Source of the DNA: Virgisporangium aurantiacum
GTDB lineage: Bacteria; Actinomycetota; Actinomycetes; Mycobacteriales; Micromonosporaceae
Direction: 5' to 3'
Assembly: GCF_016863635.1 (NCBI RefSeq)
Contig: NZ_BOPG01000053.1
Coordinates: 1 to 64,000 of the forward strand
DNA length: 64,000 nt
Shown here: in pieces, positions 24,350-36,372 of the stretch
Numbering within the stretch: position 1 is the stretch's first letter
Layout of the letters: each line of letters opens with the position of its first letter
Position numbers and translations under genes: made by a program
The notes under the pieces: generated by a model
What the model was told of the DNA's origin: nothing
The model's input: the letters and a program-made list of their open reading frames with translations, nothing else
Databases searched by the model: none

Positions 24350-25579
24350 TCAGCGGTTCGCCACGCCACCGCCGGAGGCCGGTTGGACCCGCTCGAACCG
24401 CACCCGGCTCAGGAATCCCGGGAGGTCGCTGAGCACGTACAACTCGCCGTGCACGTCGGTGCCGATCGCGGTCGGCTGGGTGGGGAACGTGCCGATGACG
24501 GCGTTCTCGTAGCCGCCGCCGGGTTTGGGGCGGATGGCGAACACGCGGGGCGCGCAGTAGTCGCTCGCGATGTAGACGCCCCGCGCCTCGGGGGTCCGCG
24601 ACCCTCGGTACACCGGCCCGCCGATCACCGAGCAGCTCTCCGTCATGAAGTGTTCGTACTCGAAGACGGGGTCGGTGTACCGGCTGCCCGGTCGGCACTG
24701 CGTCTGGTCGAAGACCGGCGTGCCCTCCTTGCAGGACCAGCCGAGGTTCGCCCCGCGCTGCGACGGGCGGATGTGGTCGACCTCCTCGATCAGGCCCTGG
24801 CCGACATCACCGATCCACAGCGAGTTGTCGACCGGGTCGATCGAGAACCGCCACGGGTTGCGCAACCCGTAGACCCAGATCTCCGGCCGCGCGCCCGGCG
24901 TGCGGACGAACGGGTTGTCGGACGGCACGCAGTAGGGCTTCGGCCCGCAGGCGCGGTTGACGTCGATCCGCACGATCTTGCCGAGCAGGGTGCCGAGGTT
25001 CTGACCGGACTTGAACGGGTCGTTCGCGAAGCCGCCGTCGCCGGTGGACCAGTAGAGGTAGCCGTCGCGGCCGAACGCGACCTGTCCGCCGTTGTGGTTG
25101 CCGTACTCGGAGTGCTCCTGGGTGAGCAGAACCTGCAACCGCTCGGGAGCGCCGAGGGGCACCCGGGCCAGGGTCAGGGCGCCGGCCGGCAGGCTCGTGT
25201 AGGCCACGTAGAGGATCCCGGTCCGCGCGAAGTTCGGCGCGGGCGTGATGCCGAGAAGGCCGCGCTCGTTGTCCGAGGTGTCGATCCGGGCGGTCAGGTC
25301 CAGTACCGGCTCGGCCGCCAGCCCGGTGTCGGGGTGGTAGGCGCGGACGGTGCCATCCTTCTCCGCGATCAGCATCCGGCCGTCCGGCAGCCCGGTGATG
25401 GCGATCGGACGCTGCAGACCGAAAGCCACCTGTTCGGATACCACGGTCAGTTCAGTGAGTGGCACCGCGGGGGTCTGTGCCGTGCCGGCCACCGACACCT
25501 GGGGTGACACGAGCGCAGACAGAGCCAGGGCGAGCAGGCTGGCCAGCATGGTGGCCGGGCGGCGACGCCGTCGCGACAT
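24350..25579 (-). CDS. Secreted PQQ-dependent sugar dehydrogenase (GSDH fold)
   Basis: A 409-residue six-bladed propeller of the soluble glucose/sorbosone dehydrogenase family. It has a signal peptide (Arg-rich start, cleavage near SVAGTA) and the family motifs NERGLLGI, EYGNHNGGQVAFGRDGYLY, STGDGG, GKIVRID and YGLRNPWRFSIDP. His in GNHNGG and Arg in GLRNPWR are the usual PQQ-site residues. These enzymes oxidise sugars at C1 and pass electrons on. AAGGAG precedes the ATG. It lies on the same strand as, and downstream of, a His-rich membrane protein and an LPMO gene, so it might feed electrons to the LPMO (inference). Confidence 0.87.
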   Translation of the reverse strand: MSRRRRRPATMLASLLALALSALVSPQVSVAGTAQTPAVPLTELTVVSEQVAFGLQRPIAITGLPDGRMLIAEKDGTVRAYHPDTGLAAEPVLDLTARIDTSDNERGLLGITPAPNFARTGILYVAYTSLPAGALTLARVPLGAPERLQVLLTQEHSEYGNHNGGQVAFGRDGYLYWSTGDGGFANDPFKSGQNLGTLLGKIVRIDVNRACGPKPYCVPSDNPFVRTPGARPEIWVYGLRNPWRFSIDPVDNSLWIGDVGQGLIEEVDHIRPSQRGANLGWSCKEGTPVFDQTQCRPGSRYTDPVFEYEHFMTESCSVIGGPVYRGSRTPEARGVYIASDYCAPRVFAIRPKPGGGYENAVIGTFPTQPTAIGTDVHGELYVLSDLPGFLSRVRFERVQPASGGGVANR

Positions 25580-25626
25580 GGTTCAGCTCCTTGAGCAGAG
25601 TGGGGGACGCAATCTGGGGGCGCCGG

Positions 25627-26208
25627 TCAGAGCCCGGCTGCGGCGTCGTATCGGCGGCGCAGGTTGGCCATTTCCGCGTCGGCCAGGGCTTCCTTGAGCG
25701 CCAGCTGCGCATACTTGGGCGGGAACATCTCCTTCAGCCGGTCGACGAACATGACCTCGGCGGTCGCTTCGACGACCTGGATGCCCGGAGGATCGGTGGA
25801 CAGGTTCACGATCACGGGGCCGGCGAGCTTGACCGCGACGTCCCAGGGACGCTTCGGCTCGGCGACGCCGCACATGTGGAAGCCGTACACGGTCTTCACG
25901 TCGGCGACCGTGGTGGCCCCGGCCGGCTCGTAGCCGTAGACGCGGACCCCGCAGATCACCGCCGGCGTCGCCTCCTCGCCGGTGGCCGCCTGTTGGGCGT
26001 TGTGTCCGGCGTGGCTGTGTTGGCCCGGGTCCGCCTGTTCGAGCGTGGTACGCAGTCGGGTCATGATCTGGCTCTGCAGGTCCGCCGGCTCCGGCTTCGA
26101 GCCGGCCGAGTTGACCAGTGCGACCGCGCCGGCCGTCATCGCCAGGATCACCGCCGCCCATACGAAGCGGTTCCGGTACCACCCCGCGGAACTTCCCCGG
26201 GCAATCAT
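25627..26208 (-). CDS. Single-span membrane protein with His-rich segment, unknown
   Basis: Not recognised. The 193-residue protein has one membrane helix near residues 15-35 (FVWAAVILAMTAGAVALVNS), then a helical stretch with the His-rich sequence GQHSHAGHN, then a soluble outer domain with two Cys (AVICGVRVYGYEP, YGFHMCGVAEP) that could pair. The His cluster and Cys pair hint at metal binding. It is encoded between the LPMO (90 bp upstream) and the PQQ-type dehydrogenase (47 bp downstream) on the same strand, so it may belong to the same extracellular oxidative system. ATG 26208 puts the helix at the N-terminus and has GTGGAAG upstream. Confidence 0.6.
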   Translation of the reverse strand: MIARGSSAGWYRNRFVWAAVILAMTAGAVALVNSAGSKPEPADLQSQIMTRLRTTLEQADPGQHSHAGHNAQQAATGEEATPAVICGVRVYGYEPAGATTVADVKTVYGFHMCGVAEPKRPWDVAVKLAGPVIVNLSTDPPGIQVVEATAEVMFVDRLKEMFPPKYAQLALKEALADAEMANLRRRYDAAAGL

Positions 26209-26297
26209 GATCGCTTCCACCTCGTGGCAGGTTGGTCGGGCGGGCGGGTACCGGCCCAGGACGTCGGCTGACGTCCCGGGCCGGCCGGTCGTGCCGA

Positions 26298-26978
26298 TCA
26301 GGAGAAGGTCACGTCGGCGCACCACATGTAGGCCTGGTCCAGGTGCGAGGCCTGCCAGATGACGAACAGGATGTGGTGTCCGGTGTAACCGGAGGTAGAG
26401 ATGTTGAACGAGATGTTCTGCGCCGGCGCGTATCGTCCGGTCTGCGTGATGAAATCGAGGTTTCCCCACCCGAGCGACTGCGTGGTCGGGTTGTACCCCT
26501 GCTTGCTGACATAGACCCGGAAGTAGTCAGCGCCGTGGCTGGCCTGGTCGTACAGCTGCACGGTGAAGTTGCGGCTGATGGCCGTCGTCTTCCAGGCTCC
26601 GATCCGGTTCAGGCTGTCGTTCCGGGCCAGGCCGTTGCTGCACAGCTGCCCGTCGGGGGTACGGGCCTGGAACTGGCCACCGAGCCCGTCCCGGAGCGCG
26701 CTCATCCAGTTCCACATGGTGTCCGGGTTCGCCTGGAAGGCCTGCCAGCACATCGGGTCCTGGGTCTGCATGACCGGGTTCATGTGCTGATTTCCCCAGG
26801 TCTTCCAGCATTGGTAGGCGCGGCTTTGCGGGTTGATGATGGTGCCGTGTGCCTGGGCCGCGCTGGTCCAGGGCAGCATGCTCACCACCATGGTGAGCAG
26901 CACGAACAGCACCCGGACGGGTTGGCGGGCGGCGGAGCGGGATCGCCGACCGGATCGGTCGACCTGGCGTGGACGCAC
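26298..26978 (-). CDS. AA10 lytic polysaccharide monooxygenase
   Basis: A 226-residue secreted copper enzyme that cleaves cellulose or chitin oxidatively. After a signal peptide ending AQA the mature protein begins with His44 in HGTIINPQSRAYQCW, the first histidine-brace ligand. The second His is in GYTGHHILFVIWQASH, and Cys residues supply disulfides. No carbohydrate-binding module follows; the chain ends ADVTFS. GTG 26978 is chosen because GGAGGA lies 6 bases upstream. An exact CebR box sits between promoter and start, so cellobiose-type induction is expected. The two downstream genes may be redox partners. Confidence 0.93.
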   Translation of the reverse strand: MRPRQVDRSGRRSRSAARQPVRVLFVLLTMVVSMLPWTSAAQAHGTIINPQSRAYQCWKTWGNQHMNPVMQTQDPMCWQAFQANPDTMWNWMSALRDGLGGQFQARTPDGQLCSNGLARNDSLNRIGAWKTTAISRNFTVQLYDQASHGADYFRVYVSKQGYNPTTQSLGWGNLDFITQTGRYAPAQNISFNISTSGYTGHHILFVIWQASHLDQAYMWCADVTFS

Positions 26979-27011
26979 GATACGTCCTCCGTTCTTCGAC
27001 GGGTCTGGGGG

Positions 27012-27025
27012 TGGGAGCGCTCCCA
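27012..27025 (-). promoter_or_regulatory. CebR operator of the LPMO gene
   Basis: TGGGAGCGCTCCCA is a perfect 14-bp palindrome identical to the known CebR box that represses cellulose-utilisation genes in Streptomyces and related genera until cello-oligosaccharides are present. It lies 34 bp before the LPMO start and directly after a promoter-like pair: TTGATA (27052-27057) and AATGCT (27029-27034), 17 bp apart, read on the minus strand. Confidence 0.85.
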
Positions 27026-27161
27026 GCAAGCATTGCATCCAGATGTCGACATATCAACTGATGTCTATGAAATGGAGGTGAGCCACCCCGGGAAAGTCGG
27101 AGGCCCTGATACCAGGATGATCTTCCTGGTGAGCTTGGCAACAGGTCAGACACTAGGCGGG

Positions 27162-34260: not shown

Positions 34261-36372
34261 ATGAACCCGAGGAGAACCACCGTCGTCGCCGTGCTGACCG
34301 CGACGCTGGCCGGGCTCGCCGGCCTGACGGCGACGCCCGCCGCCGCCCACCCCGGCCACGAACCGCCACCGCTGCCCGCCGATCAGACCGCGTTCCAGAA
34401 GGTGACCCTCAACGACCGGCCCGGCGAGCCGATGAGCCTCGCCGTGCTGCCCGACCTGCGGGTGCTGCACACCGCCCGCACCGGCCAGGTACGGATCCAC
34501 GATCCGCGCACCGGGCTGAACCCGATCGCCGCCAACGTCCCCATCTACCAGCACGACGAGGAGGGGCTGCAGGGCGTCGCGATCGACCCGGACTTCGCCC
34601 GCAACCAGTGGGTCTACCTCTACTACTCGCCGCCCGGGAACACGCCCGTGGACGACCCGGCCACCCCGAACGTCAACGAGGGTGACGCGCCGACCACCGG
34701 CACCCAGGCCGACTGGGACCGGTTCAAGGGTGCGCTGCGGCTGTCCCGGTTCAAGCTGCGCGGCAACACGCTCGACCTGGGTAGCGAGCAGCGGATCATC
34801 GACGTTCCGGTCGACCGCGGGATCTGCTGCCACGTCGGTGGCCAGATCGACTTCGACAGCAAGGGAAACCTCTACCTGTCGACCGGTGACGACACCAACC
34901 CGTTCGAGTCCGACGGCTACGCGCCGCTGGACGACCGCGAGGGCCGCAATCCCGCGTTCGACGCGCGCCGCAGTGCCGGCAACACGAACGACCTCCGCGG
35001 CAAGCTGTTGCGGATCAGGGTGAAGCCCGGCGGTGGGTACACCATTCCGCGCGGCAACCTGTTCGCACCGGGCACGCCCCGGACCCGGCCCGAGATCTAC
35101 GCGATGGGGCTGCGCAACCCGTTCCGGTTCGACGTCGACCCGAAGACCGACCAGGTCTACATGGCCGACTACTCGCCGGACGCCGACCACCCCGACGCCG
35201 AGCGTGGGCCGGCCGGTCAGGGCCGGTGGATGGTCATCGACCGGCCGGGCAACTTCGGCTGGCCGTACTGCGTCACGCCGACCATTCCCTACCGGGACTA
35301 CGACTTCGCCACCGGGACGGCGGGGCCGGCGTTCAACTGCGCCGCGCCGGTGAACGACTCGCGGTACAACACCGGCCGACGGGTGCTGCCCCGGGTGGAG
35401 CAGCCGGAGGTCTACTACTCGTACGATGCGTCCCCGTTGTTCCCCGAACTGGGGACCGGCGGGATCGGCCCGATGGCCGGCCCGGCGTACGACTACTCGG
35501 CGCGGAACCGGTCGCCGTTCAAGTGGCCGCAGGCGTTCGACCGTAAGCCGCTCTTCTACGAGTGGACCCGCGACTACGTCAAGGCGTTCTCGCTGACCCA
35601 CGGCGACGTGACCTCGATCGAGGCCGTCGCGCCCGACATCGTGTTCGACAACCCGATGGACATGGAGTTCGGGCCGGACGGAGCGCTGTACGTGCTGGAG
35701 TACGGCGACGGCTTCTTCTCCGAGAACCCGGAGGCCCAGTTGGCCCGGATCGACTGGACCCGCGGCAACCGGACGCCGGTGCCGGTCGTGGCGGCCGACG
35801 TCGTGGCCGGCCTGGCGCCGCTGACCGTGCAGTTCAGCAGCGCGGGAACGGCGGACGCCGACGGTGACGCCCTGCGGTACGCGTGGGACTTCGACGCCGA
35901 CGGCCGGGTGGACTCCCGGTCGCAGAACGCGTCGTTCACCTACACCCGCGACGGCGTCTACGAGGCGACGCTGACCGTCACCGACTCCACCGGCCGGCGG
36001 GCGTCGGCGTCGGTGCGGGTCGTCGTCGGGAACACGATTCCGGTGGTGACGCTCACCGCGGAGCCCGCGGGCGGCACGTTCCAGTTCGGCGACGCGGTCA
36101 CCTTCACGGTGACGGTCGAGGACGACGCGCCGATCGACTGCGCGCGGGTCACCGTGGCCTACATCCTCGGACACAACGAGCACGGTCACCCGCTCTCGTC
36201 GACGGCGGGCTGTTCGGGCACGATCCAGACGTTCGTGGACACCGGCCACGCCGGAGCGAGCAACCTGCGCGGCGTCTTCGTCGCCAGCTACACCGACGCG
36301 CCGGAGGGCGGGCTGCCGCCGCTCAGCGGGTCCGATGAAGTGGTTCTGACGCCCACCGACGTGGCGGTCTGA
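34261..36372 (+). CDS. Secreted PQQ-type sugar dehydrogenase with PKD domain
   Basis: A 703-residue exported protein. After a signal peptide (cleavage near TPAAAHP) comes a six-bladed GSDH-type propeller of about 480 residues with EEGLQGVAIDPDFA, GICCHVGGQIDFDSKGNLY, STGDD, NDLRGKLLRIRV and YAMGLRNPFRFDVDP. A PKD domain follows (APLTVQFSSAGTADADGDAL, YAWDFDADGRVDSR) and then a C-terminal beta domain. The GLRNPFRF motif matches the dehydrogenase family; PKD domains usually bind surfaces or other proteins. It starts 11 bp after the isomerase stop and so belongs to the same operon. Substrate unknown. Confidence 0.85.
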   Translation: MNPRRTTVVAVLTATLAGLAGLTATPAAAHPGHEPPPLPADQTAFQKVTLNDRPGEPMSLAVLPDLRVLHTARTGQVRIHDPRTGLNPIAANVPIYQHDEEGLQGVAIDPDFARNQWVYLYYSPPGNTPVDDPATPNVNEGDAPTTGTQADWDRFKGALRLSRFKLRGNTLDLGSEQRIIDVPVDRGICCHVGGQIDFDSKGNLYLSTGDDTNPFESDGYAPLDDREGRNPAFDARRSAGNTNDLRGKLLRIRVKPGGGYTIPRGNLFAPGTPRTRPEIYAMGLRNPFRFDVDPKTDQVYMADYSPDADHPDAERGPAGQGRWMVIDRPGNFGWPYCVTPTIPYRDYDFATGTAGPAFNCAAPVNDSRYNTGRRVLPRVEQPEVYYSYDASPLFPELGTGGIGPMAGPAYDYSARNRSPFKWPQAFDRKPLFYEWTRDYVKAFSLTHGDVTSIEAVAPDIVFDNPMDMEFGPDGALYVLEYGDGFFSENPEAQLARIDWTRGNRTPVPVVAADVVAGLAPLTVQFSSAGTADADGDALRYAWDFDADGRVDSRSQNASFTYTRDGVYEATLTVTDSTGRRASASVRVVVGNTIPVVTLTAEPAGGTFQFGDAVTFTVTVEDDAPIDCARVTVAYILGHNEHGHPLSSTAGCSGTIQTFVDTGHAGASNLRGVFVASYTDAPEGGLPPLSGSDEVVLTPTDVAV

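Follow-up and report, generated by a model that had tools for sequence, protein, structure and literature searches.

A CebR-box-associated AA10 LPMO gene and its two candidate partner genes in Virgisporangium aurantiacum and related genomes

Fungi are not known to synthesise pyrroloquinoline quinone (PQQ) themselves. The fungal AA12 PQQ pyranose dehydrogenase CcPDH is reported to drive lytic polysaccharide monooxygenases (LPMOs; PMC5960967), and a 2023 review states, in the section cited here, that no clear electron-donor protein has so far emerged for bacterial LPMOs (PMC10154616). Here we analyze a 64,000-nucleotide stretch of Virgisporangium aurantiacum DNA (positions 1 to 64,000 of contig NZ_BOPG01000053.1, henceforth the window), in which a CebR operator precedes a gene for an LPMO of family AA10, followed by a gene for a membrane-anchored, His-rich protein (henceforth gene 2) and by a third gene for a secreted protein with a glucose/sorbosone dehydrogenase fold (henceforth GSDH). 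Our literature search, from which supplements and most subscription papers were out of reach, found no paper on the LPMO, gene 2 and GSDH set, and none on CebR with PQQ among the titles listed.

The locus shares traits with each of the closest described systems. Like the fungal AA12 enzymes CcPDH and TrAA12, the window GSDH is a predicted secreted, six-bladed propeller of the GSDH type that is linked with LPMOs and carries a catalytic His and an Arg-Asn/Asp pair; unlike them, it has no detected cytochrome b or carbohydrate-binding module (CBM) domain, and a C-terminal Arg is absent. It has the PF07995 fold and the HNGG and RNP motifs of the bacterial Asd/sGDH PQQ dehydrogenases (2g8s, 3das, 1c9u/1cru), but Q-P-T stands in place of their C-terminal R-x-R, and sGDH matches it at 25 bits as against 91 for human HHIP. 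As in Teredinibacter turnerae (TERTU_3803 and TERTU_2913) and Cellvibrio (Cbp2D and Cbp2E), the sources of proposed bacterial LPMO redox proteins, the setting is a cellulose degrader with AA10 LPMOs, and one TERTU domain is GSDH-like. However, the TERTU proteins are large and multi-haem, and the domains tested did not donate electrons to an LPMO according to the part of the report cited (PMC10916295), whereas the window GSDH consists of one domain and is linked to a single clade of LPMOs. The operator is the same 14-bp box as in the CebR regulon of cellulolytic Streptomyces, where AA10 genes have CebR sites, but the part of that account cited here mentions neither GSDH nor gene 2 (PMC4898821).

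From sequence comparison, we consider it very likely that the three genes constitute a co-regulated LPMO module, one that is conserved and probably under common control, with two uncharacterised partners. Comparison with relatives shows a shared operator, recurrent linkage and a strict nesting of GSDH within LPMO-bearing genomes, and gene content gives good support to a function of GSDH that is linked to the LPMO. The initial annotation, made from the letters of the window, had placed a CebR box at the LPMO gene and linked the three genes; the boxes, linkage and gene content of relatives now back both proposals with evidence beyond that available to it.

Operator, promoter and LPMO gene

The operator, the exact palindrome TGGGAGCGCTCCCA, occupies positions 27012-27025. 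It matches the CebR box exactly, is the sole match in the window with up to two mismatches tolerated, and is placed likewise ahead of orthologues of the LPMO and GSDH genes; shuffled versions of the window held a mean of 0.43 matches at this tolerance, with at least one match in 35 of 100 shuffles. A promoter-like pair on the minus strand, TTGATA-17-AATGCT (27029-27057), stops directly before the operator. Its -10 element is weak (AATGCT shares three of six positions with TATAAT), and a generic scan for sigma-70 promoters and terminators reported nothing and did not pick up the pair. When 47 regions upstream of LPMO genes are stacked without gaps, however, their consensus keeps a TTGATAT-like -35 element at the same distance, and the consensus of 61 GSDH upstream regions has another element, CgATGTA, directly before the box. 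The exact box behind TTGATA/AATGCT and ahead of the AA10 gene had been called at the correct coordinates in the initial annotation. CebR, as a presumed repressor here, would close the LPMO promoter by occupying its start site.

The LPMO gene (26298-26978, minus strand; PF03067) encodes a secreted AA10 protein with a mature N-terminal His and most likely starts at the GTG at 26978, behind GGAGG, rather than at the ATG at 27038 of the longest open reading frame (ORF). The match to PF03067 (LPMO_10) scores 149 bits and begins at His45 of P0003. The nearest solved relatives are 5uiz, 6ndq, 4oy6 and 5opf, and in the last three residue 1 aligns with the mature N-terminal His of the window LPMO.

A genome-wide search placed this operator in a larger set. 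The source genome (14.1 Mb, in an assembly rated 97.6% complete and 9% contaminated) has 21 CebR boxes with at most one mismatch, 12 of them exact, and the reversed pattern gave one match. By our reading, eleven of the 12 exact boxes front genes for cellulose or cello-oligosaccharide use, namely glycoside hydrolase (GH) genes of families GH9 (three), GH5 (two), GH48, GH3 and GH1, the last adjoined by a LacI-family gene, together with three LPMO genes including that of the window. By this content the CebR regulon is real in this genome. One of these boxes marks a second locus, on contig C4 (L004 3830-5882), in which an exact box is followed by another LPMO gene and then by a gene for a GSDH protein that carries a membrane anchor of its own and a His-rich linker; a congener (L328) shares both the gene order and the linker. 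An LPMO and a GSDH protein are thus paired behind CebR boxes on two occasions.

Two further box-bearing loci stand apart from the module. The twelfth exact box fronts a condensation-domain gene on contig C61 (L009 3663-3690), where it abuts a second box with a mismatch; condensation domains occur in non-ribosomal peptide synthetase clusters, and a cellulose-controlled natural product is possible. On contig C57 (L017 3607-4537), a one-mismatch box accompanies a gene for an expansin-like secreted protein (DPBB and expansin C domains).

Linkage and gene content in relatives

From the 96 gene-2 loci found through an alignment of gene-2 relatives, we fetched the best 80, referred to as the named loci; they span 813 kb, some are cut by contig ends, and their source organisms are all, we take it, Micromonosporaceae. 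An LPMO, called at 40% or more identity to that of the window, lies within 5 kb of gene 2 in 52 of the 80 loci, and in 49 of these 52 a CebR box with up to two mismatches lies upstream of it; GSDH is found within 5 kb in 11. Boxes with at most one mismatch number 60 in the 813 kb, as against zero to two for each of 19 scrambled palindromes. The genes occur as LPMO-gene 2 (20 loci), gene 2-LPMO (18), GSDH divergent from gene 2-LPMO (7), gene 2-LPMO-GSDH (3), LPMO divergent (3) and LPMO-gene 2-GSDH (1). The last arrangement is that of Paractinoplanes atraurantiacus (L192, identical to L236 of G227), where an exact box is followed by the LPMO gene, about 10 bp, gene 2 and a GSDH gene that starts in an ATGA overlap. 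The window order is therefore rare, but the three genes are joined in several orders, as if the partnership had been rebuilt. A gene order without conservation would have counted against the initial annotation, and this objection holds by half: the exact LPMO-gene 2-GSDH order was observed in the window and in a single further species, other orders are commoner, and most GSDH orthologues lie away from the LPMO gene, but they carry a CebR box of their own.

Gene 2 also occurs in other surroundings. Among 20 more distant copies fetched, those of L079-L084 (around 5.4-9.2 kb) directly follow a box and one gene, which in L079, the sole case tested, encodes a GH6 enzyme with CBM2; the copies in L078, L087 and L089 lie near other LPMOs, and the remainder show neither setting, L085 having a box directly upstream of gene 2. 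In four loci of the main set (L164, L173, L178 and L184), gene 2 occurs without an LPMO and neighbours a GH65-like gene and one for an ABC-transporter ATPase, both named by eye.

We then counted orthologues in 300 genomes of the family, the source genome included, scoring the best few candidates per genome. GSDH (at least 78% identity) is present in 85 genomes, the LPMO (at least 69% identity, the next matches being near 50%) in 134 and gene 2 (E no higher than 7e-57) in 129, of which 120 have the LPMO. GSDH and LPMO occur together in 85 genomes, the LPMO alone in 49, neither in 166, and GSDH alone in none. The two largest genera repeat this nesting (32 with both, 0 with GSDH only, 22 with LPMO only and 52 with neither in one; 26, 0, 18 and 23 in the other). 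These gene-content tests treat genomes as independent, which genomes are not, and shared descent can inflate the counts. In 80 of the 106 sampled genomes of one genus, we compared GSDH with the cellulase GH48, present in 70 of the 80. Within these 70, GSDH occurs in 22 of 38 genomes with the LPMO and in none of 32 without it, whereas GSDH and GH48 are not associated across the 80 (both 22, GSDH only 1, GH48 only 48, neither 9; p 0.27 with genomes treated as independent). It is the LPMO, and not GH48, that GSDH accompanies in this genus.

The upstream regions of all 85 GSDH genes divide into 67 with their own CebR box, six on the same strand behind the LPMO gene and 12 with neither. The 67 boxes are centred 31-76 bp before the start codon, 10 being exact, 54 having one mismatch and three having two; as a yardstick, random windows of about 300 bp drawn from these loci contain a box, true ones counted, in 88 of 1050 cases. 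GSDH paralogues at 54-61% identity have a box in 11 of 20 cases (20 of 32 listed), and homologues at the level of the class (44-61% identity) in two of 16, which suggests that the link between GSDH and the box is largely confined to this family.

These boxes would also be expected if the regulator were all that the genes have in common. GSDH would then be a further cellulose-regulon protein that scavenges or oxidises sugars for the cell, and its adjacency to the LPMO in the window a chance clustering within that regulon. Most GSDH orthologues carry their own box with no LPMO adjacent, the boxed paralogues fit too, and CebR boxes serve many GH genes in this organism. We nevertheless regard this explanation as unlikely: it does not account for GSDH tracking the LPMO rather than GH48, for its presence in none of the 166 LPMO-negative genomes (a count that kinship may inflate), or for a linkage seen in three arrangements and in an overlapping operon.

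The interval between the LPMO gene and gene 2

Bearing on whether one transcript covers all three genes of the window is a perfect 16-bp hairpin, about CCGGCCCAGGRCGT..CGYCCTGGGCCGG (26250-26285, minus strand), that lies 12 nt past the LPMO stop codon and has no U tract in the window. Folding of the whole stretch between the LPMO gene and gene 2 gives -50.3 kcal/mol (z -3.6), while the 47-bp gap between gene 2 and GSDH has no such structure (z 0.19 for the stretch folded). A pattern with the exact arms gave no match in the genome, the window copy itself being one mismatch off the pattern; a looser pattern matched the window copy and none of 17 other loci of the source genome, with no sign of a genome-wide repeat. 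Surveying the named loci (L126-L205, five matches skipped), we found a stem of at least 12 pairs, one mismatch allowed, at 45 of 50 non-duplicate LPMO 3' ends, compared with 97 of 562 other ORF ends taken from a simple ORF picker. The stem is present whichever gene comes next (17 of 20 before gene 2, three of three before GSDH and 25 of 27 before something else).

It is thus possible, on a probability clearly below even, that gene 2 and GSDH lie outside the LPMO transcript in the window, the hairpin ending that transcript and weak readthrough or an unseen promoter serving both genes. The conservation of the stem irrespective of the following gene suits this explanation, as does the absence of the hairpin from the tight Paractinoplanes operon. 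It is countered by the missing U tract and by the window itself, in which a box search and the generic scan revealed no separate box or promoter ahead of gene 2 or GSDH. Within a polycistronic RNA, moreover, hairpins of this kind can make the upstream portion more stable.

Gene 2, the GSDH protein and their possible roles

Gene 2 (25627-26208, minus strand; P0001) encodes a protein of no known family, with a single hydrophobic segment near the N terminus (about residues 15-33) as membrane anchor, a His-rich linker (QHSHAGH) and an alpha/beta domain with two conserved cysteines, Cys86 and Cys113, both invariant in 55 alignment rows. Across residues 81-193, the model of the domain has a pLDDT (predicted local distance difference test) score of about 90 or higher. 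Gene 2 has no match in Pfam, NCBIfam or the PDB sequences; Pfam matches of 21 relatives are scattered and weak (best E 0.0022, in one relative), and fold searches with the model returned nothing convincing (best E 0.17 with Foldseek; best Z 4.7 in VIA, with a root-mean-square deviation of 4.3 over 92 residues). The anchor, linker and cysteines agree with the earlier description of a His-rich, Cys-containing membrane protein without a family.

The third gene (24350-25579, minus strand) encodes the secreted GSDH, which matches PF07995 at 139.9 bits (cut-off 25) over profile positions 1-277 of 332. HHIP is the closest solved sequence, followed by 7cdy and 2g8s. A phmmer search (E 0.001) retrieved 13 sequences, none named AA12, and an AlphaFold model built from 12 close sequences reached a pLDDT of 35, insufficient for a fold search. 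All 12 of 12 alignment rows keep His162, Arg240 and Asn241, which are the positions at the reactive quinone. Secretion and the PF07995 match fit the earlier designation as a secreted PQQ-type sugar dehydrogenase; its PQQ part is so far unsupported, with the catalytic residues kept but the C-terminal arginines missing.

As the best overall explanation, which we hold tentatively and at somewhat less than an even chance, we propose a secreted module derepressed by cellobiose with GSDH and gene 2 as LPMO accessories. When cello-oligosaccharides are present, the cell would make the AA10 LPMO, the GSDH propeller and the membrane-anchored His-rich protein together. GSDH would work extracellularly on the sugars of the LPMO step. 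Its likeliest role would be that of a redox partner, oxidising the ends of cello-oligosaccharides and passing electrons or H2O2 back to the LPMO by means of scavenged PQQ or another quinone. Gene 2 would use its His-rich linker to capture a metal on the cell surface, copper being the probable one, so as to load or hold the LPMO. We judge the redox role of GSDH to be a minority possibility and the copper role of gene 2 to be similarly uncertain; the fuller proposal of a dedicated partner, a CebR-induced propeller of HHIP type that gives electrons or peroxide or clears lactones while gene 2 delivers copper, is rather improbable as a whole.

Several observations weigh against this explanation. 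The hairpin may terminate, attenuate or protect, and transcription might stop before gene 2. GSDH is not required, since 49 of the 134 genomes with the LPMO lack an orthologue of it. In 28 of 80 loci, some cut by contig ends, the 5 kb around gene 2 contain no LPMO belonging to this clade (four of the 28 have a box of their own, and a different AA10-like gene, named by eye, is nearby in three). The GSDH protein on contig C4 is without the catalytic His. In the window protein, Gln368-Pro-Thr370 replaces the R-x-R equivalent to R406/R408 that is common to the canonical GSDH members of the source genome and the solved enzymes, with Gln368 and Thr370 invariant in 12 rows; this C-terminal end was aligned by eye, MAFFT having slipped there. 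A profile search found no cytochrome or CBM domain in the window protein. PqqC was not detected in the source genome, a search that covered this pqq gene alone, and exceeds the cut-off in 21 of the 300 genomes but in just three of the 85 with GSDH (four at E 0.001), one of the three being the Paractinoplanes with the tight operon.

Published work cuts both ways. The PQQ residues of CcPDH are given as R273, R621, H539 and H560, Arg621 having a counterpart in bacterial enzymes, and fungal AA12 enzymes are described as binding PQQ with a different residue set that lacks several residues of the bacterial enzymes (PMC6881789, PMC4133262, as far as cited). E. coli is reported to scavenge PQQ (PMC6881789), and the same habit here would answer the objection from missing PqqC. 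On the other side, the GSDH-like domain of T. turnerae bound no PQQ and the cytochrome domains failed to drive an LPMO in the experiments cited (PMC10916295). The PQQ-based electron-donor link of the initial annotation is thus unsupported so far, given this result, the missing PqqC match and the missing arginines, and the mixed evidence from residues, PqqC and T. turnerae keeps the redox reading well short of even. In our analysis electron donation by GSDH is one of several readings.

A different and still rather unlikely reading dispenses with PQQ chemistry: the propeller may bind or open the 1,5-lactones and oxidised ends left by C1-oxidising LPMOs, or bind a ligand as HHIP, of the same fold, does. 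HHIP as the best PDB sequence match, the missing basic C-terminal residues, the lack of a PqqC match in most GSDH carriers and the T. turnerae domain all speak for it, and a strict dependence on the LPMO would be expected of a protein that handles its products no less than of one that donates electrons. The catalytic His and Arg-Asn kept in every row speak against it, although HHIP, too, is described as keeping the His (PMC4133262), and lactonase activity in the GSDH family is our own suggestion.

Independently of the module, the source genome has 17 GSDH-domain matches without a PqqC match, another of them lying at 34426-35322 of the window, which puts the cofactor of the group in question.

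Across the 300 genomes, then, GSDH usually shares the operator of the LPMO and is never seen without that LPMO clade, which makes it a concrete and cheaply testable partner candidate. Were it to fail as an electron donor, it would still mark an unrecognised step in the oxidative breakdown of cellulose, and gene 2 represents an unknown family tied to LPMOs.

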